DNA of 64,000 bases, from positions 11,018,244 to 11,082,243 of the forward strand of contig CM046861.1 in NCBI GenBank assembly GCA_025617745.1, in the 5' to 3' direction. The notes beneath the pieces are model-generated. The model was given only the letters and a program-made list of their open reading frames with translations, did not search any database and was not told the DNA's origin. The stretch comes from Heliocidaris erythrogramma. Its lineage: Eukaryota > Echinodermata > Echinoidea > Camarodonta > Echinometridae. Positions 346 through 64,000 of this stretch are shown piece after piece. Position 1 is the stretch's first letter, and every line of letters begins with the position of its first letter. The translations under genes and the position numbers were made by a program.

Positions 346-1690
346 AAAGCAACTGGGCAAGGTGGATTATATAGCACGTAAGAATTGGTGTATGCTGTAC
401 GGTTTGGAATCATCAAAATGATAAGAAATTGACTCAATCCTGCTGAGAGTCACAAGCACTGCACACATAAATGTGTATATGGGACTAAACACAAATGTTC
501 GGCCCGAATATTTCAGCTGTTGTCATATTTTGAATGTGAGAGCATTTGAAGAGCAATCCTTTTCAGGGGACATATCTACCATGATAATCTTCCAAACTAA
601 CATAATAATGAGAAAGCTCACAAATTATTTTTTACCTTTCTCACTGAACTCAAGCTTCCCTTTAAACTCATTCAGCAATTGAATTTGATTGAAATATTGA
701 TGTGATATTGGCCCATCTCCAAAATTATATAATTGATATAATTTTGGCCGAAAGGTGACCAAAATATCCAAAACGCCATAAAGGAGCTCGATAAGACTAA
801 CATTTTTGGAATCAGCGCAAATTTTTCCCAATGTTAAAGGGAGCGACAAGTCGCAATCTATGGGCGCTCTTACAGTTGGCTGCTCCTTTCTCTGGATCAA
901 AGTTCAAAGCGACTTCAATTTATCGTGCGCAGCTAATAAAAGTTCGCACATTGACCCAAATTTGAGCAAACAAGATCGCGCGTTCTTTATTCCAGTATTT
1001 GAATCTCATTGGTCGGTTGCGTATGGAGGGATTCGAGTTAACGATCGCGTGAGGAATCCGGCAATAACATTCCTTCGGTAGCGCACGATTGGACCTGATT
1101 GTATCCGAATTTCTCCGAGTCAGGCCAACTGGTCAGGCCCATGGATTACGACTTGCCACTCCCTTTAAGTATTTTAAACATTCGCCATCACATGCATTTT
1201 CTGCTCGAATTATTCGAGCTTGGGAAAAATTAAAGCCACTCGAAGTCCCCTTCCGCAAAATGAAATTTGTACAAGAATATATTATGCAAATGGTCAATTG
1301 GGGTCAAAGTGGCCAAAATGACCGAAGTGGGCCACACTGCATGTGCAAATTCATTCCACGAGATTGTTTTGAAACCAGCGCACATTTTTACATAGTACAG
1401 ACCCATCAGGTCTTGCTTATAATAACAATTGGAGAAATCGCCCCTGACAGTAGGTGACCAAAATGGTCAGTTTTGACCCCAAATGTCTTAAGTAGGGTCA
1501 ATAAGACTGACATTTTCGGATTCAGCGCAAAATTTTACCTCCAGATAAGCCTTTCAAACCTTCCCCAGCAAAAAACATCTGATTAAAGCCCCATATCTCC
1601 TAATGTACTCCTATGGTAGTAAAAGTTGCGTTTGTTCAAAATCGGACAAATAATATTATGTTTCAAACTTGAGGTAATTACAACTATACA
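346..1690. other. Intergenic stretch with a dispersed direct repeat
   Basis: No gene is recognised. A segment containing GGTGACCAAAAT, then an 'AATAAGACT-ACATTTT' phrase and TCAGCGCAAA, appears at about 750-835 and again at 1450-1545. A relative of the 600-800 part (AAGCTCACAAATTATT) reappears near 56730. These are diverged interspersed repeats. The ORFs at 806-1081 and 1089-1457 match no family I know. Confidence 0.4.
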
Positions 1691-1695
1691 TGTAC

Positions 1696-1862
1696 ATAAT
1701 AGTGGGGCGGCATAGCGTCAAATTTCAGCCCGATATTGCATTGTGAGATAAAAACCAAATTTGGCACACATGCATATGAATTCTAAACAAAATTGGATAT
1801 TGAGCCATCTCAGATTCTGCCCCTGAGGCCCGTTGTGCCCATTTTTCAAAATGATCGTCACA
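1696..1862 (+). repeat. Left arm of a large inverted repeat
   Basis: This arm is the diverged reverse complement of 3490-3660. Shared landmarks include GAGCCATCTC, GAGGCCCGTTGTG and CCATTTTTCAAAATG in the same order. The arms lie about 1.7 kb apart and may bound an old long-inverted-repeat transposon; no transposase is readable between them. Confidence 0.55.
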
Positions 1863-1930
1863 GGGTCCAAAATGGATATATAATACCTATAGGATTACTA
1901 GATGATGTTGAAAGACTTAAAAAATTTCCT

Positions 1931-3489: not shown

Positions 3490-3660
3490 CAGCTTTTTAC
3501 TTATCATACAGGGAAGGGTATTCTGTGGTGGCCATTTTGAAAAATGGACACAACGGGCCTCGGGGGCGAATTCGAGATGGCTCAAAATCCAGTTTTGATT
3601 AGAACACATTTAGTGCTTTTATCACAAAGTGTGCCGCCTCATCACAAATACACCAGAGTA
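3490..3660 (-). repeat. Right arm of a large inverted repeat
   Basis: Inverse of 1696-1862. A further short relative (CTATGCCGCCTCAC) lies at about 3337-3352. Confidence 0.55.
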
Positions 3661-4104: not shown

Positions 4105-4551
4105 ATGTTGAGGACGAGGGTGATAAATGTAATTGGATGGAGATACAGTGCCTTGCATGCACGAACATTTTTACAGCATCAAAAAGGTTATGATACACAT
4201 GGACAAGGATATCGTAATTGCCTTTCAACACAAAAACATTGCGCTACTACTACTAGTACTACTAGTCGTAGCACTCCCAATAATAAACGGGCAGTGCCTT
4301 TGGCTTTGGCTTTGACCTCGACCTCGTACAGAAAACACAGCAGTGGACGTAGTGTGAGTGGACTTACTGAGGATGACCTATTCCAAAGGAAAGAAGTGCC
4401 ACTACGGGGTGCTGATGGAAAGTCTCCTCCTGCAATCGACTTTAGCAAAGCGGAAATAATTTTCAAGCAGAAATCCACCCTGGAGCTGGCCAGGAGCTTT
4501 GTGGTCCTTCAAATGTGTAGCTTCAACTTTTTTGTTGATAACAGTTTGAAG
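4105..4551 (+). CDS. PRODH2: PRODH2-like exon 1 (residues 1-149)
   Basis: Contains the ATG, a presumed mitochondrial presequence, a Thr/Ser-rich low-complexity linker and the first conserved segment (DFSKAEIIFKQKSTLELARS). Ends in phase 0 at AAG before GTATAA. It could be read without splicing into the intron for two codons, but homology resumes only in exon 2. Confidence 0.9.
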
Positions 4552-6562
4552 GTATAATATATCCCAAATCAAATTTGGGAAGGAATGAACTTTTGGGCCA
4601 AGTTTTTCCTAGGTTGATAACTTTAACCCTAACCCTCCCACAAAATGTGAAAAACAATCATACCTATACAGTGCCAAGTGGAGTTAAATTGAAATTACCT
4701 ACCTTAAAAAAAAAGGAAAAATAATTTAGCCCCTGTTCTGCATGATTGCCCATAAAATAGACAGTCCATTTGAACAATAAAAGTGGTATTTCTGTACATG
4801 TTCTCATGGGGGAAGGGGTGGGGGGAGGCAAGTGGAATATTAAAAGTACAACACTGTTTAAGCCTGCTTTGTGCACTAGAAGAAACGTGTACAAATTTTA
4901 CAAATATTTGAAAATATTTTGAGTGAAGAGTAGTGGGGGATATTAAACTGTGCCTGTGGTCCACCTTTTGTCTTCCGTTATTACAGCATTGAGCCAAATA
5001 GTTTAAAAGGTGCATCACTGCATGTACATGTAAATTTATGTTCCCTATTGTGTAGAGGGATTTCATGAGCTTTTTGTATAACTTGGAAAATAATTTTACT
5101 GTGGAATTATGCTGTATGCTGTAATAAGCCAGTTCGTAGATGCAATCTGAGCATGGGCAGATATAGGTCATCTGTACCAAATTCTAAAACCCACTGACAC
5201 TAATATTTGATATGTGCTCATGAATGTCATGTAATCATTATTCAGTTATGCACTAATGGTGCATTCCATGATATCCAGGTGGAAGTATTCTTTTTAAAGG
5301 GGGGAACCAAAAGCTATTCATGAGGCACCTCTATCACTCCCAGAGTTATTTTTCTGAAGTGCACATAAAGGGACCCTCCATGTCTAAAATATATATGGAT
5401 ATTTGGGGTCATTTGTACCATGCGCTAACTACGAACTGGTCTATTGTTTGGTGCTTGGTACCCTTTAATATCTGGAAAATTCTAGTGAACTGTTGCCTTA
5501 ACCAGTTCAGTTTTTCCACTAAATTTTTGACTACAACATTCTCCTTTCTTTGTAGCCTTGATACAGGAACCAGATGATTTCTGCAGCCAGTGGGTTAATT
5601 AATCTTTGTTTCTATTGTTGTTTGTCCACAGCTCATGGCCCTTGGTCTCAGACTATTAGGTGACTCTCTCTTCTCATACCTCATGAGGGCGTCCTTCTAC
5701 GGCCAATTTGCGGCCAGTCCGCATTCGGTCAGGCAGGTAGCTAAAAAGTTCAATGCGGCTGACATTGCGCCTATGCTAGCCACCACTGCTGAAGAGGAAG
5801 TTGGAGATAACCCTGATATGTGAGTATGTGAAAATATTATAGGACTAGTTTCATTGCAGTGGCATAGCTATGGGTCATAATGGGGGGGGGGGGGGGGGGC
5901 CAAAAAATGGAGAAATTTAAAACTGGTAAAAAGAGAGGGGAGAAGGGAGAAGATTGACAAATAAACAAAAATCGAAGTCCATACAAATAACCTTATCAGG
6001 TTGAACACCCCCCCCCCCCCCCCCCCCCACTCCCTCTTGGTCACCGTTTATGGTTTACAGACTGAGACTCCGAGTGAATGGCTGAGCAAGCCTCTTGGAG
6101 ATGAGATGCTGGGAGTGCTGCAGGACCAACAGAATTTGTTTGTTTGTCCCGGTGTAGGAGGAGAATAATGTCCGCCAGTGGATCGCCACTGAACACATTT
6201 TTTTTCAATAAAGAAAGGGGAAAAATCATTCTTATGCATGTGGCTGAGCTAGATACGTTAAAGATACTATTCGGTACGGTACGGGCCCCGTTAGCTTTTC
6301 GTAATGGCTGATACACATGTCAAACCAAACTATTAAAGTTCCTAGCCTCCTTTGTTGCTTCATTGAGGAAGGTCCCATAGGCGGATCCAGAGGGGGGTCC
6401 GGACCCCCCCCCCCCCCCTTTTTGGCGCCGTTTTTTTTTCTTTTTTTTTACTTGTCAGGGAATTACATGTATGGAGGGAAACAGGACCCCATAACCCCTT
6501 ACTGAGCGATTTTTGAAGGTTTTTGAAGGTTTGGCAAAAAAAAAATTTTTGTCTCTACCACC

Positions 6563-6605: not shown

Positions 6606-9600
6606 CTGAGCGACTTTTCGAGAAGCTGGCGAGACCCAAAAAATCGGGTCTACCTTTTCACAAACATTCATTTTTGTGCCCCCTCTTTTACTCAATCCTG
6701 GATCCGCCGCTGGGTCCACTATTTTTTAGTTTGAACCCCCTTAAAAATCCCAGTTACTGGCCCGATACATGTAACTTACACAGGTTCACACACGAACGAT
6801 AAATAATAAATTTGGCTTGGCCAACTTTAAATAGCCGAATCAAATTTTTAAAAATACAATGAAGGGAACGAAACAAACGAGTAATTGTCATGAAACAATA
6901 TAGATATTGCAGAAGAAATAATCATTACATATGAATTTCCCTCTCCCTTCCCTCGCCTACTAATATTGAGTGACGACTCTGGCATTAATATGTCAGACAT
7001 TTCTATTTATTTCTTTTCGGGGGGGTGGGGGGCTAAGGTGGTTTGCTTGTAGTGTTGTCTTGTCTTCAGGGGCGACCGATCGCGAGTGACTTCCAAAGTT
7101 GGGGAGGGCGCCAAGAAAACGGCACTTACAAGAGATTATAATATGCACTCTTATAATATGGAAAATAGACACTTATGCTATTTCAAAGGAAATTGGGAAA
7201 ATGTCAACTGAAAAGGGGCACGTGACAAAATGAACAGGGCGCTTATCAGAGATCAGAAGGGGAAGGGGCACTTTTACAAAGTAATTCATTTCACTCTCAA
7301 GCTTTCTTTTCTCTCTTTAGCGAGTCCTTCTTTCTGTATGATTTTATCTTGTTATTCTCCCTACTTTTGAATACATGGGATGTACACGATGGAGCAGGCT
7401 TAGTGTGAAATCGAAGAAAAAGTCTGTCGTTGAATGCTTTTAAGTTGTCACTGAATAACCCAAATTAATAATTGATCTACATGTCATCATGAAAATGTTT
7501 AAATATCATCAGTCCCGGAAATATGTTGTTATTTTCCAAAGTGTTTCCAAATCACTCACTTTAATATCAACTTTAGACTGTAAGTTAAGTTAAATCGTTT
7601 CTATTACTTTTTTAAATGGTGTTTGTGTGGTTGTTTTTTTTTTTGGTGTTTTTCCAAACTTTAACTAACACTTTTCTTCAATCTAAAAAATGTCTTCAAA
7701 TCAGGATTTTGTATACATAAATTAATTTATTTCTTTGTAATTTCTACAAGGATTATATTCTTTTATTTGCATGTCAATCTTTATCATGTACATAGTAAAT
7801 TCTGACAGGGCCGTTGTGGAAAGTAGTTTGGGTCTGTCAGGGTTATGCTGAGTATGTCTCTGTTAGCATTTTACAACAAAAGTCATACGAACAATGCAGA
7901 AAGATCATGTTCATTGTCAATGGACGCTTGTATTGAATATGTCTAGACTGCATGTTTCATTAAATCCATTCATTATCAGTAGAAAATTATTCAATACCAG
8001 GATCATCTGATCATGAGTCAAGATACACTGTCCTTTTAAAAACATCTTTTGATTATACCTGACGTACCGTGAATTTCGAGGTCTCATACCAACAATGCAA
8101 AATTCAACTTTTCAATGTAAAAAAAAACACACCAGAAACATGAACATGTTTTTGGGATTCCCCCTCCCACACAGATATGGCTTCATTGTATTTTATTTAT
8201 AGTATTGGAAAAAAAACACATTCTATTCAACAGTTCAATGTTGAAAGCAAGCAAACCAGATAGTGACATTTCTTTTTCAAAGTACTCCTCCCACACAGAT
8301 ATATATATGAATAGCGACCGTCTTCTTCCATTATGAATAGCGACCGTCTTCTTCCATTATGAATAGCGACCCTCTTCTTCCATTATGAATAGCGACCCTC
8401 TTCTTCCATTATGAATAGCGACCCACTTCTCCGATTATGAATAGCGACCCTCTTCTCCCATTATGAATAGCGACCCTCTTCTTCCATTATGAATAGCGAC
8501 CCTGTTCTTCCATTATGAATAACGACCCTCTTCTCCGATTATGAATAGTGACCCTCTTCTCCGATTATGAATAGCGGCCCTCTTCTTCCATTATGAATAG
8601 CGGCCCTCTTCTTCCATTATGAATAGCGACCCTCTTCTTCCATTATGAATAGTGACCCTCTTCTTCCATTATGAATAGCGGCCCTCTTCTTCCATTATGA
8701 ATAGCGACCCTCTTCTTCCATTATGAATAGCGACCCTCTTTTCTTTTTATGAATAGCGACCCTCTTCTTCCATTATGAATAGTGACCCTCTACTTCCATT
8801 ATGAATAGCGACCCTCTTCTTCCATTATGAATAGTGACCCTCTTCTGCGATTATGAACAGCGACCCTCTTCTCCGAATATTGACCTTTATGAATAGCGAC
8901 CCTCTTTTCTTTTTATGAATAGCGACCCTCTTCTTCCATTATGACTAGCGACCCTTTTTCCGTATTGTGAATAGCAACCCTTATGTCTTATTATGAATGG
9001 CGGTCCTTATGAATAACGACCACTATGAATAGCGACCCTTATGTCTCATTATGAATAGCTGTCTTTGTGACTAGCGAGCGGACCCCGCGAATTCGGGCAA
9101 TTAAGCTGAAACAGCTTTTTCGCTAAAAAATGAAATTATAGAAATATACCACAATTTGGGGTTCATATTATCTCTTTATTTATAAATACTGATAACCTTT
9201 TTAGGCCTACATGTATGTGATTTATCAAACCTGTACATTGAAAAAAACCCGGGGGATGTCTCATTGAGACCTTTACATCATCCGTGTAAATAACTTTCTG
9301 AAAAGCACCCTAAGCGGGGATTAGGAGTAGTTACATGTATGATACCCTAAACGGGGAAACCCATCTAACATCTCTGATTTTTATACCCTTAACGACGATG
9401 TTATCTTGCATGGTATTTTACATCCTATTTGAGGATTACATCATCATCATAGGATTCATAGACATTTTTAGCCAAAAAGGAACCATAAAAGAAATTTAGC
9501 CTAATTTGGAACACATTACCGAACTACATGTATATCCCTCCTTTCTGCTTCTTATCACCACTGAATATGATACCCATTTTCTTGATTTTTGCTGGTTTTG

Positions 9601-12600
9601 ATACCCTAAACGTGTAATCCGGGTTACGCGCCTAATGCTGAAAAAGTACCCTTATTATCCATTTTTGTGTACGCGAATGATGGACACGCCTCAATGAGAA
9701 CATGCCCTTTCATTTTTATTGAGTCACACTGTATAGCTTCTGTTTTGTTACCAGTGTATTTGTTTGTAGCCAGCACATGTGTGTATGTCCTGAATCCCAA
9801 ACTTAATTCTCAATTATATACATGTGAGGTGGAAGGCTGAACGGAAAAGGACGTTAATTTCCTGCATGCACAATCAAACGACTAGATAATCTTTGGTTGT
9901 CTGCCAAAACGCAGAGGTCAGTGGTACTTTATAGAGGAGATTCATGTCTTTAAAAAATGCTGGAAAACACACACACACACACACACACCTAATAATTCAT
10001 GAACTTTTGCAATGAGACACTGTGATGTAAAATGTCATGCACAAATTATCTGTTAGGTATTTGAAGATGTTAGGGTATGCTGTAGGGTTTTTTTCCAGGG
10101 AGGGAAGTGGGGGGGGGGGGGGGGGGGGGAGGGTGCCTGTGCCCATGCCCCTTCCTGGATCCACACATATGAAAAGCCTTACTCACTCCCTGTAATGCTC
10201 CAGTCAAACATTAAAGTTTGAGGATTCATTCAGTTGGTTGGACAGTCAGTCTTTAATGTCACAAAGCCTGTTTAATTAGTAAATTGTTCAAAAATCTACC
10301 AGTCCATCGGTCCATCTATCAAACCTTAATCATTTAATTGATAAATTATTTAATAATCAATTTTTCTTTCAGGATAAATGAGGAGAAGTATGAGAAGAAC
10401 GTAGAAACCATGCTGTTGTGTCTTGATATGCAAGCTGAAGTGGCTCGGCCTAATCAACCAATCCTCACTCAACTCAAAATGACATCTTACATCAAGGCTG
10501 ATGTTCTGGTAAATCCACTGGCATAGCCTAGTTTGCAGGCATAACCCTGGTCAGTCGTAAAGGAGAGCCTGCGCTGTAAGTAAGCCTGAGTCGAATCAAT
10601 TGGTTAACCGGTGTTCGATCGAAGACATCGAATCCCGAATTCGTTTTGGCAAATCCGGTGCATCGATTTGTAGTCCGCCAGATTTTTGACTACCGTAGCC
10701 ACCATGAAAAAAGCAAATAAAAAAAGAAACTCCGTAACGTACAGCATATATACTAGCAGAGAACGTGAAGGCGACTTCAAAGTTCAAACTGTTGGCTAAC
10801 TTTCGCTAATTCGCTCGCGGAGGACGTCACGCTTTACCTGTGCTTTCTCTATGGAAAAATCGTTTTGTTGTTACGAACTGAAGTTTACGATAATATTCTT
10901 GCACTCTCTCTGCATTGTCAATTTGACAATTGTATAATTGAACATGATAAATACGGGCATGAGTACGAGTGTTCCTACTTCGCAATAACTAATATCACAC
11001 TCTCATCAAATTGGCAATTACTTCTGAATGATCTATATCTGAAGCTGAATGAAGTCGAGTCATATGAGAGACGAAAAGTTTATTTCGTATTGTTTTTTGG
11101 TTTTTTTTGCATCGAACAAACGTGTTCCATTCAGCTCTCCAAAGACAAAGTAAGATTATTAATTCTTTGAATTTGAATCATTGTCGGGTGTGTCGACAAT
11201 GAGCATCGCTTCGTGCGACACTAGAGTGATATTTTGGCTAGCCATACGGACTAGAAACTTAAGATTTTGGCTCGTCTGCTGTGATTTTTACTAGCCATTG
11301 GCTAGCGGGCTATCGTTAATGTCGAGCAGCGATAGCCAATACATATGCCCGCGATGCCAGCGGACCGGTCACCGGTGCATGGTGCGTGCAACTGTGTGCA
11401 GCTCTGTTTTCACCGCCCATCATTTATCGATGCACTGGTATTCGATCGAATCAAAGCCGTCGAATCCCGGATTATGAAATATTCGATATGACTCAGGCTT
11501 AGCTGTAAGACTACCATGCATGCATAGGCCGTGTACTGTAGCTGCTCCTGACACGACCAGTCGGTATCTGGTTTAGGCTTCTCTCAAGACACAATTATTT
11601 TTCTGATAAAATGTCAAATTGGGGTCAGTGCTTGCAGACTAGGCAAAGCCACACTTGTTGAATAGAGGGGGGGGGGGGGGGGGGGGGAGTTGACCTGTTG
11701 TATGGGGAGTTGTAAGGCCTTGACCCCAAGTTCTTTGGACTACCTTTTTTAAAGCAGATGAATGGGGGTGGGGGGGGGGGGCTTTGTCTCCCTCATCACC
11801 CTGGCTACGCCTATATATAGGCAATTTATTCTTGACACTTAAATTTAATTTCGCAACAGGCACGCGCCCCCCTATTGGCCGTTGTAAAAAAAAAATTAGC
11901 ACTATATAGCACTATTTTGCATCTCGGCCCTTCTTCAGAAGCAAAAATTTCTCCCACATGACGGCGATCAATAATTCCTGACGCCCCCCCTATTGGGAAA
12001 TCCTGGATACACCGCTGCAAAAGGAAAATATCAAATGCTTGATAAATTTACAGAAATGATGACATCATAAAACACACTGGCGTCTCAATACAATAAATAT
12101 TTATGACATCACAATGCAGTATTCACTTATTGTTTGTGATGTCATACGACTGTATAGTTTCCATGAGTAGTACTGCTGTACATGTTCACTGATTCCCACA
12201 CTGATTTCGACATTGGTGCACCCCTATTGGCAATTTGCTCATTTCCAAGAATAATATTTTTTTGTCACATGATATGCAGTGTACTTGTACAGATTCTTTC
12301 TATGATGGAATTAAACCTGAGCAGAATTTATTTAACAAAATTCAGAAAGAATCTATCAGAAGCTATCAATAGACCTGTTTACTAATTGTATCCCCCGGCA
12401 GTATGCCGGAGGATACTTTGGATTCAGCAGCGTTTCTTGTGTGCGCTCTAGCGGTCACATTTCTCGACGAATTTCTTTCAGACTTCCTGTGGATGTGTAT
12501 CTTGGTAAAATCTGGACCCCTATAGTTTCTGGTGATGCTGCCCCCAGTGTTCCGTCTTTTATAGGGTAAAAGGCCATATTTTTTTGGATAGTTTGTGTGC

Positions 12601-15600
12601 GCTCTAGCGGTCACATTTCTCAACGGATTTTGTTCAAATTTTGTATGGAGGTGTCTCTTGGTAAAATCTGGAACCCTATAGATTTTGGTGATGCTGCCCC
12701 CAGTGTTCCGTCTTTTATAGGGTCAAAGGTCATATTTTGATAGATGTCTTGTGTGTACTCTTGTGTGCGCTCTGGCGGTCACATTTCTCAACGGATTTCG
12801 TTCAAATTTTGCATGAAGGTGTCTCTTGGTGTAATTTAAAAACCTATAGTGTTTGGTGATGCTGCCACCAGTGTTCCGTCTTTTATAGGGTCAAAGGTCA
12901 TACTTCAGGGCATGGCGTGAGTGCACTCTGCAGGCCACATTTCTCAACGGATTTTGTTCAAATTTTGTGTGGAGATGTATCTTGGTATAATCTACACATG
13001 TTTAATTTTTGGTGATGCTGCCCTCATTGTTCCGTCCTTTATAGGGTCAAAGGTCATTTTTCCATTTCTTGCACTCTTACTTCTGCATTTCTCGACGGAT
13101 TTCGTTCAAATTTTGCATGAAGGTGTCCCTTGGTGTAATCTAAAAATCTGTACTTTTTGGTGATGCTGCCACCAGTGTCCCGTCTTTTATAGGGTCAAAG
13201 GTCATAATTCAAGGGATGGCGTGAGTTCACTCTGCAGGCCACATTTCTTGATGGATTTCTTTCAAATTTTGTATGGAGATGTATCTTGGTATAATCTACA
13301 CATCTTTACTGGTTGGTGATGCTGCCCTCATTGTTCCGTCCTTTATAGGGTCAAAGCTCATTTGTCCCTTTTGTGCACTCTTACTTCTGCATTTCTTGAC
13401 GGATTTCATTCAAATTTTGTATGGAGATGTATCTTGGTATAATCTACACATATTTAATTTTTGGTGATGCTGCCCTCATTGTTCCGTCCTTTATAGGGTC
13501 AAAGGTCATTTTTCCATTTCTTGCACTCTTACTTCTGCATTTCTCGACGGATTTCGTTCAAATTTTGCATGAAGGTGTCCCTTGGTGTAATCTAAAAATC
13601 TGTACTTTTTGGTGATGCTGCCACCAGTGTCCCGTCTTTTATAGGGTCAAAGGTCATAATTCAAGGGATGGCGTGAGTTCACTCTGCAGGCCACATTTCT
13701 TGATGGATTTCTTTCAAATTTTGTATGGAGATGTATCTTGGTATAATCTACACATCTTTACTGGTTGGTGATGCTGCCCTCATTGTTCCGTCCTTTATAG
13801 GGTCAAAGCTCATTTGTCCCTTTTGTGCACTCTTACTTCTGCATTTCTTGACGGATTTCATTCAAATTTTGTATGGAGATGTATCTTGGTATAATCTACA
13901 CATATTTAATTTTTGGTGATGCTGCCCTCATTGTTCCGTCCTTTATAGGGTCAAAGGTCATTTTTCCATTTCTTGCATTCTTCTGCATTTCTTGACGGAT
14001 TTCGTTCAAATTTTGCATGAAGGTGTTTCTTGGTGTAATCTAAAAACCTATAGTTTTTGGTGATGCTGCCACCAGTGTTCCGTCTTTTATAGGGTCAAAG
14101 GTCATACTTCAGGGCATGGCGTGAGTGCACTCTGCAGGCCACATTTCTTGATGGATTTCTTTCAAATTTTATATGAAGATGTGTCTTAGTGAAACCTACA
14201 CATCTAATTTCTACACCATCCTTTTGTTTGAGGGAGGGGATGGGGGAGGGTCTTTGTCCCTCCTTCAAATCGCTGCCAGTGCCGGGGGATACATTTAGCA
14301 TTGCGCGGCCCCAGCAATGCAGATTACTAATTTTATGCATACTTCTTGAACAAAAGTTTCTCTTGATGACTAAAAAGCTTGCCAGAGGCTTGCCCGACAT
14401 AGCAACAATCTAATGTATGCAAAATGGATTCCATCCATAGAGATGCCATTATGCATATCAGGTGCACTAAATAGTTGGTAGCTAAGGATTCTGGAGAGAA
14501 ACATGCATAAATTTAAATACACCTAGTAAACAGGCCCATTGCTTATCCACATACATGTATGCAATCCTCAATACTTCATGTGTATGGAGATGATCATGAA
14601 GTGCACCAAAAGTAAATAGTATGTTAACATTGTAAATACAAATACCATACTTTGACCTTGACTTGTATTTACAGTCGTTATGTACCATTTACTTTTGGTC
14701 CGCCTGCACTCAATGGAAATTAAATAAGGCATTCATTAAAATATACCCCTAACACTAAAATAAATCATGAATTTACTATTAACGAATATACATCTCATAT
14801 AATGTAGCCTAAACAGATGTATTTGGTTATTTGAGGAAAAAATTTGTTAATAAGAATGCATTTTTCTTTTTTTTAATCCCAAACTAGGCCAAAGTTTCAG
14901 ATGTCCTTGTGAACTTGGATTACAACTTCTTAACAGAAAATCCCATCGGTGTTGCCAATTTTGTGATTGGATTAGATGGCAACTTAAGGGTATGGTATTA
15001 TATTTCTCAATCTTGTCCACTTGTTTAAGTTCTATTTATTCATATTAATTAACAATGTAATAATTGCCTAAGTAATTATTGTTCTCTGATTTGTCCCACG
15101 AATGGGGATAAAAACATTTCCTAATAAAATGCACCCCCTTGCCTGGAACTTAATGGGCGTATGGCAAAGAACAGGCATAGTTTATTGGCCCATGTATTCT
15201 TGCCTTAACCCGTTGAATACTGAATTATTTAACTCTCATAGGCTTAATACAGGGGCCACCCGGTTCCCGTAGTCTATGGGTTAAAAGGCAAAACAGGAAT
15301 GATGTGTCATATATGCTAATTCTCAGTCTAAATGATCTTAAGATCGATGTCCGCCATTGAAGCATCAAATTAATTAAATCAATGACAATTCACTTCTCCA
15401 TGCCCCTGTGTCACACCTGTGTTCATTTAGCCTGCAAATACATTCCTATGCAGGTACATGTAAGCATTAGTCTTGCTTGTAAAAAAAAATCAATATATGC
15501 AGTGAAACCTGTATTTAAAGACCGCTCAAGGAAGTGGCCTTCACGCGCAGGTGGTCCTTTTGTACAGGTTCCTCAAATACAGTCAACCTGCTTTAGCAAC

Positions 15601-18600
15601 CACCTGTATAGAAAGACCACATGTCTATAAAGACCACAATTTTCGTTTCCCTTGAACAATGTTTCTCATTGAAATGTGTATTAAATGAACCTGTCCATAA
15701 AGACCACCTGCTCATAAAGACCGCTTTTCTTGTCTCCCTTGAGTGGTCTTTACTGTTACAGATTTCACTGTACATGTTTTCAGTGAGAAACAAAAATCAT
15801 GGTCTTTATAGACAGGTGGTCTTTCTATATGGGTACATGTAGTCACTAACGTAGCTTTGACTGTATGAAATTAATTTTTGATATAATTTATGTTTGTAGG
15901 ACATTCCAGAGCTGACAAAGGTTGAACTGACCCATCTCAAGTTTGCTCTCAAGAGACTGGATACCATTGTTCGGGTGAGCTTTTTACCTCTTCCTGCTTC
16001 CCCCAACCCAAACTCAAATGCTTATACAGTGAAACCTGTCTATAAAGACCACTAAAGAGAGACAAGAAAAGCGGTCTTTATGAGCAGGTGTTCTTTATGG
16101 ACAGGTTCCTTTAATACACATTTCAATGAGAAACATTGTTCAAGGGAAACAAAAATTGTGGTCTTTATAGACAGGTGGTCTTTCTATACAGGTGGTCACT
16201 AAAGCAGGTTTGACTGTAGTAGTGTACTAGATGAGATTTAGTTATATCTCAATAACTTTTCACAAATTGACAGTGAGGAAAAAGATCAACTTTGAGAAAG
16301 CTTTAAAATGGAAGCAGTTATTGAAGGGGATGTATCTTAATTATTTTAGGATTTTCTATCAGAAAATTTGAGGATCATGTGAATTTTAGCAGAATATAAT
16401 GGCGGGGGGGGGGGGGGGGGGGGTGGGGGTGGGTAACTTTTTTCCAACAAATTTATTAATATGGATTAACCCTCTTTCGTTTTGTTGACAGAGAGGTCAA
16501 AGAAATGGGATCAAGATTCTAGTAGATGCAGAGTATGTATCTATCAATCAAGCCATGTCCCTCATCACGTTTGCTCTGATGAAGAAATACAACAGCAAGG
16601 AACCTCTTGTTTGGAACACGTACCAAAGCTATCTGAAGGTAAGTTTCCTTAACAGAATCACCATGATACATGCTTCCTGCATGCATTGGCATAAGTAAAG
16701 TTTAACACGCTTTGGCCTTGCAGTGGACCTTAAGTTTAAGATGTGAAAGTAGATTATTGACCCATTTCAGATAGAGATATAGTTTATTGACCCATTTAAT
16801 TATACCATATGCCTGACATGTCTCTCTCTCTCTCTTTCTCTCTCTCCCCCTGTTACAAATGACTCTGACTCCCTCATCACTGCTCTTCATTTTTCGGTTT
16901 TGTTCTAGATTTGATAAGCTTTCCATATGTTCTGTTTTGTTTTTGTAATAATTCCATATCATGTCAGGATTTATTAATGATTTGATTTGATTTGATTTGA
17001 TTTAATATTAAGGATGCCTTGGTGAACTTAAAAAGGGGGGTGGCCGTGGCAGATGCAGAAGGTTTTCCATTTGGAGTCAAGGTGGTGAGAGGGGCCTACA
17101 TGGATCATGAAAGGGCCGCAGCCAGGACAGAAGGCAGGCCAGGTCGGTAGCAGGACGATATTGGTGATGATGATGGTTCTGAGGAGTCTCAAGATGATGA
17201 TGATAGTGAAGATGATGGTGGTAATGATGATGAAACAGAAGAAAGGAGAGGAGGAGGAGGAGGAGGAGGAGGAGGAGGAGGAAGAGGAGGAAGCGGGAGG
17301 AGGGGGAGGAGGAGGAAGAGGAAGAGGAAGAGGAGGAGGAAGAGATATATGTATGATGATAATGAAGATCAATGATTATGAGGGGATAGATGTTATTTAT
17401 AAAAAATAACACTGATAGAGATGGGGAGGAAGAGGCAGGGGGAAGGGAGGGGTGAGGAAAAGGGGGCAAGGAGGAGGGGAGGGAAGAGGAAGAGGAGGAG
17501 GGGAGGAAGAGGAAGAGGAGGGATGAAGAGGAGGAGGGGGAGGAGGAGGGGAGGAGAAAGAGAGGAGAAGAAGAAGAAGAAGTAGGGGAGAATGGGAGGA
17601 GGAATGCAAGAGGTAGGGGAGGGGAAGTGGGGGACATACATGTATACCTGTATTTGGGGAATTATTCAAAGTAAATCCATTGTTTTGATAAATTGATTGT
17701 ATGTACATTGAACATTGAACCCTAGACCCTGTGAACGACACCTATGAAGATACCAACAGCATGTACAACTCAGTGGTAGCACATCTCTTGGACCTCGTCC
17801 ACCAGCGTGGCAGCAACAGCATCAACATGATTGTCGCAACTCACAACACAGAGTCAGTGAATAAAGCAATAAAAAGGTACAAATCAAGAGATACACACAT
17901 CTAAGACATGCTGATAGATGAGAATATGGACCATAGTAATACATAGGTAGAGAAAAGAGAGTAAAAATAAATGAAAAATGATCACTTGAAAGGATAAGGA
18001 AATACAAATAAAGTGGGTTGACAGCTACTTATACATATAGATAAAATAATGCCAATTGTAGAATGAAGATTGCTGTAAGCAAACAGATACTTATATGGAC
18101 ATTGAGAATAGTAAAGGGGGAAAGAAAGAGGAAGAGAGAGAGAGAGAGAGAAAAGAGAGAGAGGGAAACAGAGGGAAGGAGTGAGAGAATGGGGATGAGC
18201 ATGATAGAGGGGGAGAAGAGGGTTATTTATTCTTTCCAATATTCATTGCATCGATGGATTAATGTAGAGATTTTTAAATGTGCATAGATAATGTATGCCC
18301 TTTTTTTTCTGAAATCAAATACTATTTCATTTGCATTTCTGAAAAAAAGTGCATACATTTTCCAGCTAAAGTCTCTAATAGCGTAATTCTTAATGATTAC
18401 CGATGACCATTTCAAAACTATCATTCAATTTCCCCAAACCATTCTAGGATGTGGGAACTGGGCTTATCACCAAGAGAGGGCGGTGTAGTGTTCGGCCAGC
18501 TAATGGGAATGTGTGACCATGTCTCTTACGGGCTCGGTAAGCTACATGTAAATATGCATGTACACATTTTTTCTTTAGCTATGTGTTATTTTCTCAATAA

Positions 18601-19289: not shown

Positions 19290-19870
19290 CCAGAAGGGTG
19301 TTTGGTGGAGATTGGAGAGTGTTGGGTGGAGATGGGATGGTGTTGGGCGGAGATGGGATGGTGTTGGGCGGAGATGGGAGGGGTGTTTTGTAGAGATTGT
19401 AGGGTGTTCGATGGAGAGAGGAGGGTATTTGGTGGAGATACATGGAGGAGGGTGTTTGGTGGAAATTGTAGGGTGTTATGTGGATATGGGATGGTGTTTG
19501 ATGGAGATGAAAGGGTGTTTGGTGGAGATGAAAGGGTGTTTGGTGGAGATGGCAGGGTGTGTGGTGGAGATACATGTAGGAGGGTGTTTGATGGAGATTG
19601 TAGGGTGTCTGGTGGAGATAGGAGGGTGTTGGGTGGAGATAAGAGGGTGTTTGGTAGAAATAGGAGGGTGTTGGGTGGAGATAAGAGGGTGTTTGGTAGA
19701 AATAGGAGGGTGTGGGGTGGAGATGGGAGGGTGTTTGGTGGAGATGGAGGGGTGTTATGTGGAGATGGAAGGGCGTTAGGTGGATATGGGAGAGTGTTTG
19801 ATGGAGACTGGAGGGATGTTTTGTAGAGATAGGGTGTCTGATAGAGATAGGAGGGTATTTGAGGGGTGCT
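19290..19870 (+). repeat. G-rich minisatellite in the PRODH2-like 3' UTR region
   Basis: About 24 copies of a roughly 22-25-bp unit, GGAGGGTGTTTGGTGGAGAT, begin about 20 bp after the stop codon. Two units carry six extra bases at GAGATA: CATGTA at about 19570 and CATGGA at about 19440. Long ORFs in two frames are repeat artefacts. Confidence 0.9.
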
Positions 19871-43800: not shown

Positions 43801-46263
43801 CAGGATAAATGTCCTTCTGGCTCTCACCAGATAGCGGAGTGCCTCCAGAACTCTGAACCTCTGACCTAGATGTACTTGACCTCTGCGACCTTTGATGACA
43901 TCCCATTATAGGGTTAGGCCCAAGTGGGCAGGGAACAAGAGCTATAAGGACTAAAAGATTTAGAGTTCTGAAATAGATCTGCCAAATATTCTGCACCAGA
44001 GATTGTTTAGAAACAAACAAAATAGGATTTTTACAGAAGACATGAAGAGGAATATCTAGTGCAGTACTTCATATCAGATAGATATGAGCAATAGTAAAGT
44101 AAAGTATATTTTAAAATGCTGGCAAATGGGTGTTTAGCACTCAGAAGGTGGACTTTTCCCTACATCGAATCAGACTTTAATAACCTAAGAAATCGGTCAA
44201 ACTGGCTCGAACTTCAAAAAGGTGAAAATGATTGACTAAATGCAGAGCATACAAAGCTATTAATTTAGTGATTTAGTAATATCTCATATTTGAAATCTGA
44301 ATGATATCCTCACTGCAGCTTAAATCGATAAGCTATAGCAGAGGTGGAAAATTGAATTTATTTTTAAAAAATATCCAAAGTGGAAATGAATATTAATTGC
44401 CACCAAACACCAGTCCATTAATTATTAATTCATATTCTCATTAAATTATAGTACCACCTGGGATTTTAAACGCTAAACTCTATACCTACAACCCTACTAG
44501 TACTAGGGCCTGGTTCACACATTCGGTGGCAAACGGGTGTTTAGCACTCAGAAGGTGGACTTTTCCCTACATCGAATCAGACTTTAATAACCTAAGAAAT
44601 CGGTCAAACTGACTCCAAATTCATAAAGGTGAAAATGATTGACTAAATGCAGAGCATACATGTGTCAGTAAGTCAGTAAGAAATCTATTAATTTAGTGAT
44701 TTAGTAATATCTCATACATGTATTTGAAATCTGAATGACATCCTCACTGCAACTTAAATCGATAAGCTATAGCAGAGGTGGAAAATTGAATTTATTTTAA
44801 AAAAATATCCAAAGTGGAAATGAATATTAACTACCACCAAACACCATAGTCCATTAATTATTAATTCATATTCATAAGTGCTTGGTACTGCAAAATCGGA
44901 AAATAGCGTTAAACACGGACATAATATACTAAAATACTAAAGCTTTTCGACTCTGATGAGTGCATGTCGAAAAGCTTTAGTACATGTATTTTAGTATATT
45001 ATGTCCGTGTTTAACGCTACATGTATTTTCGAATTCATATTCTCATCACATTATAGTACACCTGGGATTTTAAACCCTAAACTCTAAACTCTATTACACT
45101 GTACCTACATGTACACACCCTACTAGGGCCTGGTTCACACATGAGGTGGCAAACCATATCGTGTGTTGAGAACCAGAAGGGCGTTAACTCTGTGTTAAAA
45201 CATATGAGTTAACGCCCTTCTGGCTCTCAACAGACGATTTAAAAAAAATAAAACAAAACATAATAGAAGCAACATATACATAACAAACAAAACATATGGT
45301 GCTTCACATTCCTGTATCTGAGTACATTTCGGAGAATAGACCGCTTCGGTAATGTATGCAAATTTTATGCATACCTTTCAAACAAAGGTTGTTCTTGACA
45401 ACCTGAAAGCTTGCCGACATAGCTACAAATAATGTATGCAAACTGGATTCCAAGCATTGAGGATTATTTTATAAAAAGCAGGTTCATGGAATAGCTTGTC
45501 ACTAGGTGCTCAGAGAATACATGTATATGTGCATAAATTTGCATAAATTTGTATACATTACAGAAGCAGTCTATTTGTTGTGTGCAGCTACAATGTACCT
45601 TTTCTTTACCTTTACCACATGTACCATTCAAAAAGGTTTTTATTATGCCATTTTGATTTTTTGTTAAAAGTTACTTACTGCATTACGTCTGAACGAGGCT
45701 CATATGTGATAGATTGGCCTTTGTATGACATTTAAATACCATCTGATACCCAATACAAGATAAATAATTGATAACATCACGTCTGTTTATATTGTAGCAG
45801 GTCAAGAACTTCCACAAGAGATGCAATACAAGATAAAAGTACATATTATAGAATGGGTAAAGAAATAGATAGATCTGCATTTGTATATGATCTAGTTATG
45901 TTTATTGGATAAGATATTGTTAGGTAAGTTGAATTTCTTCTTTCATGAAACACAATGAGGGCACATAAATCTTTCTCGCCTGTTATCATTGAGCGAAGCA
46001 AGTTTAATGAGGAAGCGGATAAAAGGAAGGAGATATAACTGCTTGACTGCTGCAACCGTTCACTTCCAAGCATGCCCAAATATGCAAGGGCGTTTTACAC
46101 TGATGACAGCTGTTCAATAGATGTAACCCTATTATACATATTATCTTTCTTACCTGTTTTCGTGGAGCAGAGCGAGCTTGATCAGAGAACCGATGAAAGG
46201 GAGGAGGTCTGACCGCTTGACCGTTGCAACCCTCAGCCGATGTTCCAGGATGTGTAGCTCCAT
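30560..46263 (-). CDS. CASTOR1: CASTOR-family cytosolic arginine sensor for mTORC1, 9 coding exons
   Basis: CDS, complement of join: 30560-30673, 31248-31342, 33341-33423, 34459-34563, 35254-35386, 35892-36018, 36608-36792, 37203-37276, 46154-46263; 1026 nt, 341 residues (human CASTOR1 has 329). All introns are GT..AG with matching phases. The family has four ACT-like domains; arginine binding releases GATOR2 and permits mTORC1 activation. Recognised blocks: MELHILEHRLRVATV at the start, KFFSFTQTS..ILDEEGFK, STWLVLEA, VIVPLADKGLSIFCLSTCQTD, FREIEG, VLFYPET, YSLIDDRISLVLD, LGFEECGIVAQIAEPLAS and YLSTFLTDHTLVPE. The arginine-pocket Ser (human Ser111) and Asp (Asp304) are both kept. In the GATOR2-contact patch YQTD the Tyr is Cys here. 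The start has A at -3 and G at +4. The sequence cannot decide between CASTOR1 and CASTOR2; an invertebrate may have a single ancestral gene. Confidence 0.93.
31248..31342 (-). CDS. CASTOR1: CASTOR exon 8 (residues 273-304)
   Basis: Encodes EECGIVAQIAEPLASENIP and YLSTFLTDHTL, the last ACT domain. The Asp of LTDH aligns with human Asp304. Phase 1 to 0, donor GTAAGT. Confidence 0.93.
31398..31530. repeat. Foldback in CASTOR intron 7
   Basis: CTATCACTTCCGAAGCGATC pairs with GATCGCCGAGGAAGTGATAG, and an inner TATCTTTCC/GGAAAGATA pair lies between. A small palindromic MITE is likely. Confidence 0.6.
31738..31945 (+). repeat. About 30-bp tandem repeat
   Basis: Four or more degenerate units of GACTATTCGTAGAGGTCAC followed by a T-rich tail. 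CASTOR intron 7. Confidence 0.6.
32279..32610. mobile_element. Broken MITE with a G/T-rich insertion
   Basis: Starts AGTCAACCCTGCTTTAGTGA and resumes at TTTCTCATTGAAATATGTAT, both parts matching 15590-15740. In between is about 150 bp of TTTG/TTG and poly-G sequence (32340-32497), an expanded simple repeat. Confidence 0.6.
33222..33250 (+). repeat. (AT)n microsatellite
   Basis: Alternating AT in CASTOR intron 7. Confidence 0.9.
33341..33423 (-). CDS. CASTOR1: CASTOR exon 7 (residues 245-273)
   Basis: Encodes FPDNCICVDSAKERWRMVN and ends NLGF. Trp-Arg-Met-Val and the Gly of LGF align with human CASTOR1. Phase 2 to 1, donor GTAAGT. Confidence 0.92.
34459..34563 (-). CDS. CASTOR1: CASTOR exon 6 (residues 210-245)
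   Basis: Encodes FVSYSLIDDRISLVLDVDLL, matching the FAFSLIEGYISIVMD strand of the third ACT domain. Phase 2 to 2, donor GTGAGT. Confidence 0.9.
34617..34820 (+). repeat. (GA)n with (GACA)n
   Basis: GA-rich microsatellite in CASTOR intron 5, about 50 bp upstream of the exon 6 acceptor in transcript orientation. It gives a CT-rich transcript strand. Confidence 0.85.
35014..35245. mobile_element. Decayed hAT-like MITE in CASTOR intron 5
   Basis: Left CAGGGGCAGATCTAG, right CTAAATCTGCCAG, an imperfect inverted pair of the GGCGGATCCAG type. Interior has ACATGTTCTGACAAGC and a G-rich run. Confidence 0.5.
35254..35386 (-). CDS. CASTOR1: CASTOR exon 5 (residues 166-210)
   Basis: Encodes AEAKRAIMYPLHFPTNN and LLQVLFYPET, the linker and start of the third ACT domain. 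Phase 1 to 2, donor GTAAGT. Confidence 0.9.
35892..36018 (-). CDS. CASTOR1: CASTOR exon 4 (residues 124-166)
   Basis: Encodes VKEEDLPSVTQCLASQF and REIEGNSEPVTIDRS. Close to VREQDLSVV and REVGGEPVPVT in human. Phase 0 to 1, donor GTAGGG. Confidence 0.92.
36608..36792 (-). CDS. CASTOR1: CASTOR exon 3 (residues 62-123)
   Basis: Encodes STWLVLEATAGNDD and VIVPLADKGLSIFCLSTCQT. Ser of GLSI aligns with human Ser111 of the arginine pocket. Cys in STCQTD replaces Tyr118 of the GATOR2-contact patch. Phase 1 to 0, donor GTAAGT. Confidence 0.94.
37203..37276 (-). CDS. CASTOR1: CASTOR exon 2 (residues 37-62)
   Basis: Encodes SKSKFFSFTQTSRDFTVILD then EEGFK. Acceptor TTCTTCACAG, donor GTATGG, phase 2 to 1. 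Its acceptor lies 17 bp from a foldback MITE. Confidence 0.92.
37295..37431. mobile_element. 137-bp foldback MITE, copy 2, next to CASTOR exon 2
   Basis: GGGGAGCGTTTCATCAAGCG to CGCTCCCC; nearly identical to 1931-2068. It sits in intron 1 just upstream of the exon 2 polypyrimidine stretch, where the branch point would be expected. Confidence 0.85.
37990..39525 (-). pseudogene. Dead non-LTR retrotransposon (CR1/Jockey-like) with RT remnants
   Basis: In transcript order: an endonuclease start (HLNCRSLKKNVDNFN near 39290), RT phrases TGIFPDKLKIARVVPVFK and YGFRPGHST (39110-38930), LFLDLSKAFDTLDHSVLL (about 38860), GMPQVSILG, ILYADA in place of YADD (about 38630), NKLILNVNKTHK, then LMIYNAIISPHLHYC (about 38050). 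Several frameshifts, loss of most of the endonuclease and a changed YADD make it inactive. It lies in CASTOR intron 1, antisense to the + strand. The clade assignment is approximate. Confidence 0.85.
38284..38485. mobile_element. 202-bp hAT-like MITE inserted in the retrotransposon
   Basis: Ends CAGGGGCGGATCCAG and CTGGATCCGTCAATG are 15-bp inverted repeats. An exact 8-bp duplication TTCTTATG flanks it (38276-38283 and 38486-38493). CAG-type ends with an 8-bp duplication are the hAT pattern. It interrupts the RT reading at NVNKTHK. Confidence 0.88.
39526..41980. other. CASTOR intron 1, middle part
   Basis: AT-rich, no gene recognised. Poly-C runs at about 40553-40568 and 41029-41043 and a poly-G run near 41200. 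A perfect 15-bp hairpin (CAAGGAGTTATCACA and its inverse) lies at 41804-41838; a diverged copy of its arm is near 49650. Confidence 0.4.
41981..42284. mobile_element. 304-bp MITE with AGGCTTTTTACA ends
   Basis: AGGCTTTTTACA at the left and TGTAAAAAGCCT at the right form a perfect 12-bp inverted repeat. Repeated TTAGCCC/GGGCTAA phrases lie inside. Non-coding. Confidence 0.75.
43059..43608. mobile_element. 550-bp foldback element with TTAA ends
   Basis: TTAAAGGGAAAGTCCACCCTG against CAGGGTGGATTTCCCCTTTAA in inverse. Arms extend over GAGGAGCTCGCAAGATAC and AAGTTGTCATCA regions, so most of the element folds back. Short ORFs inside are not conserved. Confidence 0.8.
44108..45150 (+). repeat. 407-bp tandem duplication
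   Basis: TGTTTAGCACTCAGAAGGTG starts at 44131 and 44538. The following about 400 bp align closely. A third partial boundary (GGTTCACACATGAGGTGGC) is at about 45130. Copy 2 alone contains the 161-bp foldback at 44873 and extra CATGTA near 44716. Confidence 0.9.
44873..45033. mobile_element. 161-bp foldback with an 8-bp target duplication
   Basis: Absent from copy 1 of the tandem duplication; flanked by TTCATATT (44865-44872 and 45034-45041). Arms of about 60 bp (GCGTTAAACACGGACATAAT, AAAGCTTTTCGAC) are almost perfect inverses. The right arm has two extra 6-bp CATGTA blocks. Confidence 0.88.
45169..45236. repeat. Hairpin of GAGAACCAGAAGGGCGTTAA
   Basis: GAGAACCAGAAGGGCGTTAAC pairs with GTTAACGCCCTTCTGGCTCTC about 18 bp later. 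The same arm phrase appears at 43808 and 50078, so it is part of a dispersed family. Confidence 0.7.
45335..45575 (+). mobile_element. 241-bp MITE, AATAGACCGC family, copy 2
   Basis: Ends AATAGACCGCTTCGGTAATG and CATTACAGAAGCAGTCTATT. Inverse of 23535-23764, plus six extra bases in a TACATGTA at about 45516. Confidence 0.82.
45981..46066 (-). pseudogene. Decayed duplicate of CASTOR exon 1
   Basis: Read from 46066 down in the phase of real exon 1, it gives VAAVKQLYLLPFIRFLIKL then ASLNDN, aligning without gaps to VATVKRSDLLPFIGSLIKL then ALLHEN. The 3' edge AACAG is followed by GCGAGA where real exon 1 has GTAAGA. The upstream part has lost five bases relative to exon 1, and a TGA precedes the conserved stretch. 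An unusual GC donor cannot be excluded, but no start or acceptor is available. Confidence 0.85.
46154..46263 (-). CDS. CASTOR1: CASTOR exon 1 (residues 1-37)
   Basis: MELHILEHRLRVATVKRSD, then LLPFIGSLIKLALLHEN. MELHILEHR is identical to human CASTOR1. Donor GTAAGA, phase 2. Confidence 0.94.
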
Positions 46264-47258: not shown

Positions 47259-47524
47259 TTCAGTTTAAGCTTAGCTTTATTATAACACGATTGGGTAATA
47301 AAAGAAAATGCAAAGATACATGTAGGCCTACCCTATGAAGTAATGGTGTATAGAACCTTTGAAAGGCATTCATAAATCAATATTAAATCCTAATAATCCA
47401 TTACACACAGAGCCAATATAAAAAGATTACCTGCAGCTAAATAAACATTTTGTCTTTTATATCTGAAGTGGTTTAAATTCTCTCTCTCAAGCTCTCTCTT
47501 TCTCTCTCTCTCAAGCTCTCTCTT

Positions 47525-61605: not shown

Positions 61606-63400
61606 TTATTATTAAGGATCGGAGCATCAGACAAAGATAAAAGATATGTAGACAGATTACTTATCTATTTATTAGTGCTCATGTCAAATTTTATAAAAAT
61701 CTAATGAAGGGAAATATTTATTTTTGACCCGAAGTTGGTGCATGTCATGCCCTCTTTGCAACGTTGAGAACGAACGTTTGTGCTAACCCAGTCCCATATA
61801 CATGTTAGTGTGTATGGTGATGCGCCAAACGATACCAACAAATGTAGTTTGTTTTCCCATTTCTTCTATAAAAATACGGATTGCAAATAGAAAATAATCA
61901 AAAATATATATTATATAGAGATCATTCTTACAGGAGATGAAACAAAAACAGTAATTTTAGCAACGATGAAGTGGATGTTTATGGATTTTATGAGCATTCC
62001 GGCGCAGAAAATTTGTGAATATAATGTACATGTAACTGCAGATCTTGTGTTTTTGATGTGATGGGTGTAATTTGATAAATTTCCAAAACATTTATGGTCA
62101 GATTGGCATTGTTTTCTTTATTTTATTTTACAATTATTGATAATGAATTGCTTCTCTATTTCCGTTCTCTAATAAAATACTTAGCTAATTAACTAACCAA
62201 TTAATTATGTTAAATATGTGAAGTCAATTAAGATGAAAGTGTTCTTATGTTTTCCAAATGCCAGGAATGCTAAAATCTTTAAGTGCTGAAAATTTTACTG
62301 AGTTCTGATGAACAATAAGAAAGATATAGTTTGCTTTGGTTGAGTCGCATTGTATTAAATAGTTAAACATGTAATTGCATAATTAATTCATATTTATTAT
62401 TAGCTTTAGCTTTAGCTTTATAATTGAGAAAATTTTACATCTCTCTCAGACTGTTATTATCTAATACTTCTGAAAATTTCATCTCAATAACTTAATTTTA
62501 CAGAAAGTTATAGAAGTTTTTGTGTTTGAATGGACGGTCCGAGATCACAGTTTTTGTCTATAAAAACAATAGAAAACAATAGAAAACAAAAAATGAAAAG
62601 AAATTGATCGAGCTAATTTTCATCAATAAAATGACCATAACTTCCTTATTTTCAGAGCTACTGAGGTAAATGAGGAATCAAATGAAATCTTTCATCAAGC
62701 TCTATTTGATGGAAGTAATCAAATGTTTAAATTATGATATCTCAAAATTTTGTAACATACCTAGAGCTATGATACCTACAAATACCGATATAATTAAAAC
62801 CCCTCTAAACAGATTTTTCTGTCTACATCATGATACAACACTCAACAGGTCAGCTTGTTAATAAACAGTTAAAAAGGCATTGATTTTACTTTTCCATGCA
62901 TATCCTATTAATTCCAGAGATTTATGGGTAAGGATTCCGGTAATTGAGGTAACCATAGCCATGATAGCCTACTCAAATGTGGCAAACATTGACATTAAAA
63001 AACCATCGCCGGCATATAATACTAGCCAATGCCAATGCATAAAATGCGCTGGCAAGTCAATGGCATGGCATTGGCCATTGGCGTTGGCAAGCACACACAA
63101 AAAAAATCCAGAAATTTGAAACGATAAAAAACATATACTAACAACGAAAATAGACACATCAAGTAACTATTCCTAGATTAGGCCTCTCAATTGTATTAAT
63201 AGCAAATCGACAACATATGCAAAAACAGTAAAAATCAGGTAAAATATGATGTAAAAATAGGATAAACTTACATTGCTGGCCTCGGAAATTTCCAGGCTTG
63301 TCGATCACAGCTGATCAAAATGACCCGACTTTGACCTGAAGGGGATATCCCGTGTGTGTGTTCGTAATATTCCTCCACTGAAGATTAAGAGCTAGCAGCC
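61606..63400. other. Intergenic, no gene recognised
   Basis: AT-rich. Short (TAGCTT)n at 62402-62420 and a GCCAATGCCAATG/CATTGGCCATTGGC palindromic cluster at 63025-63090. Confidence 0.4.
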
Positions 63401-63840
63401 ATACACCGTTAGTTTTGAACTTCGGAGCGAAAAGAGAACACTTCTGTCTACGGAATTTGTAAAAGCGTTTTGGATACAGTAACCAATTTTAAGGTATGAA
63501 AGAATGTATATTAATATCTAGTCTATTTTTATGTCAAACTAAAAGTTCATTCATGGATTTTCAGATTGCGTTGGATATGTCGAAACAACTTCAAGTTAGA
63601 CTTAGGCCTAGTTAGAGTCCGAGGAGTCACCTACGGAATGGGAGCGGGGAGGGTTGTTTGCTGTGCTACTCTGCCAGAGTGTCGGCCGGAAACGCAGATA
63701 GAGTTAGTGGACGAAAGAGAGAAAGAGCGGACGATGCCGCCCAAGTCCAAGACTTTCTTGAGTCGCCATCCGAGTCACGTCACGACGGCAACATTAGAAG
63801 TAGGCTAGAGGAGGGAGTATTCAGCCTGGCTCTAGGCTAG
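63400..63840 (+). other. Possible first exons of a gene leaving the window on the right
   Basis: A potential donor at 63493/63494 (TTTTAAG then GTATGA) and acceptor at 63564/63565 (GGATTTTCAG) would define a 71-bp intron. The following 63565-63830 is CpG-rich for this window and holds an ORF from 63734 (MPPKSKTFLSRHPS..) with A at -3, and an overlapping ORF in another frame. I recognise no protein family; promoter-proximal sequence is a guess. Confidence 0.22.
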
Positions 63841-64000
63841 TATTTTTTTTCTCCAGACAGTATTCTGAGTAGATTGTAGTGTACATGTAGATAAAACATT
63901 AATATTTTGATAATTAAGGTAGGCCTAGGCCTAGGCCTAAACTAAAAGTTTTTTTTAGTTTGATTGGCTTTCTTGCGAGGGAGAATAGGAGTGCCTATCT

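Follow-up and report, generated by a model that had tools for sequence, protein, structure and literature searches.

The palindromic octamer TACATGTA was strongly over-represented in the genome of the sea urchin Heliocidaris erythrogramma. It was studied in a 64,000-nt window (contig CM046861.1, positions 11,018,244 to 11,082,243; G000:C9:11018244-11082243 in our numbering) of assembly GCA_025617745.1, which comprises 1,064,227,859 bases in 26 contigs. The octamer is most probably the excision footprint of DNA transposons of the Tc1/mariner superfamily, left by Tc1-like elements and their non-autonomous relatives. This reading is well supported by anatomy. A discrete gain of six bases (+6) at TA, the excess of the word, a preference in its flanks and resident elements with matching ends were all observed directly, and from these we infer excision. 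We found no paper linking TACATGTA to excision scars; our coverage of the literature was partial, and an earlier report may exist.

The window contained 62 exact octamers, the first at 1687-1694 and the last at 63882-63889; being palindromic, they have no strand. Dinucleotide shuffles (n = 100) gave a mean of 1.46 and a maximum of 7, and Markov models of orders 1, 2 and 3 predicted 1.55, 3.0 and 4.0 copies. These counts agreed with a first-pass annotation made from the window alone, which had set about 60 octamers against about 2 expected. In a 264-kb sample, consisting of the window and 20 random 10-kb stretches (L005-L024) from the first 1-19 Mb of contigs C1-C20, 182 octamers were found against 6.4, 11.9 and 16.0 expected under the same three models. 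The annotation had proposed a genome-wide count against a Markov background. This count reached 374,827, which was 14.4, 7.8 and 5.8 times the scaled expectations for orders 1, 2 and 3, with an estimated excess of approximately 310,000-350,000. The excess claimed from the window therefore held, but its size did not: instead of approximately 30-fold, it was approximately 40-fold in the window (order 1) and about 6-14-fold genome-wide. A general excess of CATG or of palindromes was ruled out, since the 15 other NN-CATG-NN palindromes had 0-5 copies each in the window. The reversed word ATGTACAT occurred 153,227 times genome-wide and is a poor control because it sits within stacked sites (described below).

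The density of TACATGTA was 0.97 per kb in the window, 0.60 per kb in the random stretches and 0.35 per kb as the genome mean. The earlier description of an even spread held fairly well inside the window (variance/mean 1.5 per 8 kb). It failed elsewhere: the 20 random stretches were very uneven (0-23 octamers per 10 kb, variance/mean 7.8). Over L005-L024, the density was not correlated with that of a second word, TAGGCCTA (rho -0.02), and no relation to repeat fraction was apparent by eye. The longest octamer-free stretch in the window (9533-14551) includes a tandem array at 12436-14205 with periods of about 150 and 452 bp.

The origin of the octamer was visible in comparisons with empty sites. 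An all-against-all alignment of the window, L005-L024 and four 3-kb loci chosen for holding a stacked word (L001-L004) placed 18 octamer sites within paralogous repeats. Five of these were a clean +6 (CATGTA) at TA, namely window positions 6464, 44715 and 45518, L009:641, and L019:6069 with five empty copies. One further site (15834-15841) was a probable scar, with +6 plus further substitutions relative to the paralogous copy at 16115-16218. Two sites lay in a satellite and differed by substitution only, and the remaining 10 had a different, zero or ambiguous length difference in alignments of 68-84% identity. Among the six-base gaps in this set (n = 15), only rotations of CATGTA recurred. In the class of six-base insertions with TA on both sides, TACATGTA was found five times, whereas each of four other words was found once; the pairwise alignments additionally contained one +5, TACCGTA. 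At the empty sites, TA was already there before the scar, and TA flanked both sides afterwards. The octamer thus represents six added bases (CATGTA) at a TA that already existed, a discrete difference as the first-pass annotation had stated.

The same difference was found in several settings. At 6464-6471, the window read AATTACATGTATGG and a paralogue in L022 (80% identity) read AATTATGG; at 44715-44722, CTCATACATGTATTTG stood against CTCATATTTG in a paralogue at 44120-44437 (88% identity). A fold-back repeat at 44906-45017 carried a scar in its right arm (44981-44988) and TA at the corresponding place in its left arm. Another octamer (45018-45025) was located at the expected right flanking TA of this repeat, the left flank being plain AAAATA. 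In a minisatellite at 19295-19861, a scar was present in one unit (19571-19578; GGAGATACATGTAGGAGG versus GGAGATAGGAGG in adjoining units) and TACATGGA, a one-base variant, in another. When 43 copies of the L019 repeat were aligned, the consensus was free of TACATGTA, and two of the 43 copies had the +6, at different consensus TAs. The highly iterated palindromes of cyanobacteria (HIP1-type) are likewise single, exact, palindromic octamers that are strongly over-represented and dispersed. The difference lies in the origin: TACATGTA is created by a discrete insertion at TA, which to our knowledge has not been described for HIP1.

The site at 45518-45525 belonged to a copy (45334-45584) of a family of approximately 240 bp resembling miniature inverted-repeat transposable elements (MITEs), for which a first look gave 1,857 candidates genome-wide. 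Among 24 aligned copies, the one in the window read AGAATACATGTATATG, a +6 relative to the consensus AGAATATATG. Copy L091 had a +5 nearby (TACTGTA, the Sleeping Beauty form), and copy L085 had a +12 elsewhere that, from its printed string, consisted of two stacked scars. A gapped pattern spanning the scar site matched 1,809 times genome-wide, a few places being matched twice, and 135 matches were longer by three to seven bases. Among the 100 of these listed, 26 were +3, 28 were +4, 9 were +5, 26 were +6 and 11 were +7. The non-scar words in this tally were mostly A/T-rich, the commonest being TATAATTAT (15), TATAATAT (12) and TATATTAT (10). In the full list of +5 and +6 matches (n = 45), TACATGTA was present 19 times at the second and five times at the first of two adjacent TAs. 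The others were one TAGGCCTA (+6), one TACAGTA (+5), two near-scars with one base changed and 17 other words. The 24 intact TACATGTA alleles, of which the window copy is one, were spread over 13 contigs and represent at least two events because they occupy two different TAs.

After adjacent scars were removed, 138 of the 182 sites (276 pooled positions) were kept for flank statistics. A was enriched three bases outside the octamer (position -3; 139/276 versus 90 expected, p = 1.1e-9), and position -1 was also shifted (p = 3e-4). Positions -5 and -8 were nominal only (p = 0.046 and 0.025), and position -2 had no significance at these 138 sites. The flanks of TACATGTA carry an AT-rich, palindromic, Tc1-like target preference. 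The target consensus is CAYATATRTG for Tc1 and ANNTANNT for Sleeping Beauty. Mariner/Tc1 elements are described as favouring bendable, palindromic, AT-rich targets (PMC5481204), and the zebrafish element ZB as favouring ATATATAT around its TA (PMC7913693).

Two observations bear on the age of the scars. Octamers were rarer in DNA with at least two matches inside the sample (9 in 35,992 versus 173 in 227,861 positions, or 0.25 versus 0.76 per kb), as expected of scars accumulating with age, in a comparison from a small sample whose repeats include satellites. The 24 one-mismatch neighbours of TACATGTA amounted to 291 copies against 155 or 220 expected. Compared with the excess of the octamer itself, and under a simple model with an uncertain background, this would suit scar deposition over roughly 0.1-0.3 substitutions per site.

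Candidate sources of the scars were present in the genome. The profile PF01498 gave 1,494 first-look candidates and PF13358 gave 1,755; 150 were scored for each, and many were located in open frames (340-390 aa for PF01498). Matches to both profiles point to predicted transposases of the superfamily, and identical scores among the PF01498 copies suggest recent copies. Sixteen Tc1-like loci were taken and divided into seven families by alignment. The end of an element was placed where similarity between copies stops and the inverted pair meets TA. Ends were read in six of the seven families. Five had the arrangement TA|CA...TG|TA, and for each of these at least one copy showed both ends; the inner bases of the scar are therefore the terminal bases of resident TA-flanked elements. 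The search for such elements, suggested by the first-pass annotation, was in this respect successful. The five families started with CAGTTAAC, CAGTTGTG, CACTACTC, CAGTATG and CACTGTTGG, that is, with CAGT or CACT and never with CATG. One family (L036, L037) had TATA on either side in both copies (TATA|CTCAGAGG; TATA|CTCAGAG), and its first letters could be either TACTC or CTC.

We infer that the resident elements made the scars, by a two-base cut in these families and by the following route. An element would insert at TA and duplicate it, giving TA-CA...TG-TA. On excision, the transposase would cleave one strand precisely at each 3' end of the element and the other strand two bases in from the 5' end, so that each flank keeps a CA overhang. 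Both two-base overhangs would usually be kept at joining, with one strand extended across the other overhang, to give TA-CA-TG-TA. With CA...TG ends and two bases kept per side, the product would therefore be TACATGTA. As the CA terminus is common to many families, all of them would leave the identical scar, and each scar would bring two TAs open to further insertion. Cuts of this kind are described for ISY100, with precise cleavage at the 3' ends and, in nearly all cases, cleavage two bases inward of the 5' ends (PMC2170065), and the Tc1 break is described as leaving non-complementary two-base 3' overhangs (PMC4490562). The first-pass annotation had proposed a TA-targeting, CA-ended element that keeps two bases from each side, and the CA-ended families, the direct +6 and the flank preference all support this proposal.

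The termini of Tc1 and Tc3 of Caenorhabditis elegans are CA/TG. These elements share with the present case the TA target, the termini and a scar made of terminal bases plus TA; they differ in typically leaving +4, whereas here a single +6 word with both overhangs kept was very numerous in the assembly. Sleeping Beauty and Frog Prince are also Tc1-like, target TA and leave a small scar of terminal bases. Their scar is a +5, and +5 alleles of that form were only isolated here, with one TACTGTA and one TACAGTA in the MITE family. In the 264 kb, the two words together numbered 61, little above the 33 (order 1) or 47 (order 2) expected. The bacterial IS630/Tc1/mariner element ISY100 has the cut position proposed here at the 3' and 5' ends. 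Unlike the sea urchin elements, it is prokaryotic, its ligated donor reads TATATA (PMC2170065), and the accessible part of that report describes no genome-wide scar load. Footprints of the Tc1/mariner superfamily are given as 2-4 bp, and those of ZB itself as 0-3 bp (PMC7913693). The four-base CATG remnant would fit the superfamily range, and the +6 form is thus atypical without being unprecedented. It may reflect routine retention of both overhangs or a different cut in these families.

Several observations weigh against excision of Tc1-like elements as the source. Published reports give the typical Tc1 scar as +4 (78%, in soma; PMC13148408) and the Sleeping Beauty and Frog Prince scar as C(A/T)GTA, a +5 (PMC3878927). 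Germline Tc1 scars of C. elegans were varied, with 26 distinct products in 103 animals (PMC4490562), and one uniform scar therefore calls for explanation. The +4 words TACATA and TATGTA numbered 264 in the 264-kb sample, between the 208 (order 1) and 314 (order 2) expected. The pairwise alignments contained only one TACATA-type +4, in a tandem context, and neither word was among the 28 listed +4 MITE alleles. The +4 of C. elegans Tc1 is not the main product here. Additionally, CA starts were not in excess among the 114 TA-flanked pairs, many of them nested, of an inverted-repeat scan of the 264 kb (CA 6, AA 20, TT 12, GG 5), a scan that gives no verdict either way on abundant CA-ended MITEs. 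We came upon no element-filled counterpart of any empty or scarred site, and no one-locus test was made. The excess of approximately 310,000-350,000 octamers contrasts with approximately 1,500-1,755 unverified transposase candidates, and very many excisions per surviving copy would therefore be needed. Lastly, the 24 MITE alleles may in part come down from a scarred MITE that moved.

The uniformity of the scar would be accounted for by an element family with CATG...CATG ends, whose four-base, self-complementary CATG overhangs anneal and are ligated to give TACATGTA; TAGGCCTA would be the corresponding GGCC case. This was the second option of the first-pass annotation. We consider it unlikely, because the five CA families begin with CAGT or CACT. 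The 264-kb scan, covering a tiny part of the genome, contained no inverted pair with CATG at both ends; in the pair at L014:3182-4131, CATG at one end faced CACG at the opposite end.

Somewhat less probable still is an enzyme or repair process, new to science, that adds CATGTA at TA without a mobile element. The scars are very many and recognisable transposases modest in number, and the +6 differs from the typical Tc1 footprint, both of which would favour such an activity. However, the added letters are the same two bases that form the termini of resident Tc1-like families, the flank preference resembles a Tc1-like one, and the MITE family that carries the scars also has single +5 alleles of the type left by Sleeping Beauty (TACTGTA, TACAGTA). 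This alternative, which was also raised in the annotation, keeps a small probability but appears superfluous, as it invokes a novel activity although an established one is enough.

Scars also occurred in stacks. The stacked word TACATGTACATGTA was present 20,322 times genome-wide (reversed control 7,407) and 11 times among the 182 octamers of the 264 kb, in which most sites were single. In the window, it was located at 27090-27103 (octamers 27090 and 27096), 31037-31050 (31037 and 31043) and 40400-40413 (40400 and 40406), corresponding to the three stacks previously reported near 27090, 31035 and 40395. Mixed stacks were found at 9202-9215 (TAGGCCTACATGTA) and 47317-47330 (TACATGTAGGCCTA). For an insertion arriving later, a scar provides the context ATG|TA, consistent with renewed hits on scars. 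Uniform re-hits would give approximately 3,300 stacked sites; approximately 15,000 are obtained after allowing roughly for uneven regional density and for the flank preference. The observed number exceeds the uniform figure, and microsatellite slippage, with (CATGTA)n or (ACATGT)n as the unit, may add to the stacking. As the origin of single scars, slippage was refuted by the empty sites, which consist of TA without any CATG to copy, as had been argued from the window; as a general explanation it is very improbable. A motif kept by selection, such as a transcription-factor or methylase site, is just as improbable: the word is palindromic, exact and very abundant, and it occurs in Phytophthora literature, partly, by title, as promoter motifs or binding sites, but it arises as +6 insertions in repeats and minisatellite units and is rarer in DNA that repeats within the sample.

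The second word, TAGGCCTA, is also a palindrome of the form TA-NNNN-TA. It occurred 76,065 times genome-wide, versus 3,329 for the reversed word and approximately 6,450 expected (Markov order 2). Window copies were located at 9202, 42447, 47169, 47323, 63603, 63920, 63926 and 63932. The triple stack TAGGCCTAGGCCTAGGCCTA at 63920-63939 is a candidate scar of this second kind. In the 264 kb, TAGGCCTA was stacked with itself (4) and with TACATGTA (4). None of its four sites in the alignments was a clean +6; its single +6 was the MITE allele described above. TAGGCCTA may be a second scar and a lead towards GG-ended elements.

On balance, and with some reserve, we favour a broader reading in which Tc1-type excision is one main writer of small insertions in this sea-urchin lineage. 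Approximately 0.3 million fossil scars would then be present per haploid genome, far above the number of surviving elements. Germline joining would keep both overhangs and give +6 (two codons, frame-preserving) instead of the typical +4. GG-ended elements would have left TAGGCCTA as a parallel tally, and all scars together would amount to a countable record of past transposition. Cut-and-paste transposons are usually counted from their remaining copies. If departing elements all leave one legible scar, past jumps could be counted after the loss of the element, mapped with respect to genes and assigned dates in repeats whose age is known. A move from +4 or +5 to +6 poses a testable question about how DNA ends are joined in the germline of echinoderms, and a scar that preserves the frame would harm exons less than a +4.

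Among other words, TACTAGTA was dropped as a third scar: despite 18 copies versus 3 expected in the 264 kb, its genome-wide count (37,428) was below that of the reversed control (53,209). TACCGGTA and TAGTACTA had 8 and 9 copies only. TACACTGTA and its complement were found 19 times in the 264-kb sample, against 2.0-3.5 expected (L001:2868 versus L023); they could either belong to a repeat or represent an uneven scar left by elements with CACTG ends. A Pfam scan of 20 of the 369 window open reading frames of at least 50 aa, taken after a complexity filter, gave only a partial RVT_1 match below the cut-off (38577-38909, minus strand), and an Rfam gathering scan gave no match. The open frame at 4108-4554 (plus strand) had two matches, one of which was 73% identical over half the length to a Strongylocentrotus purpuratus protein.

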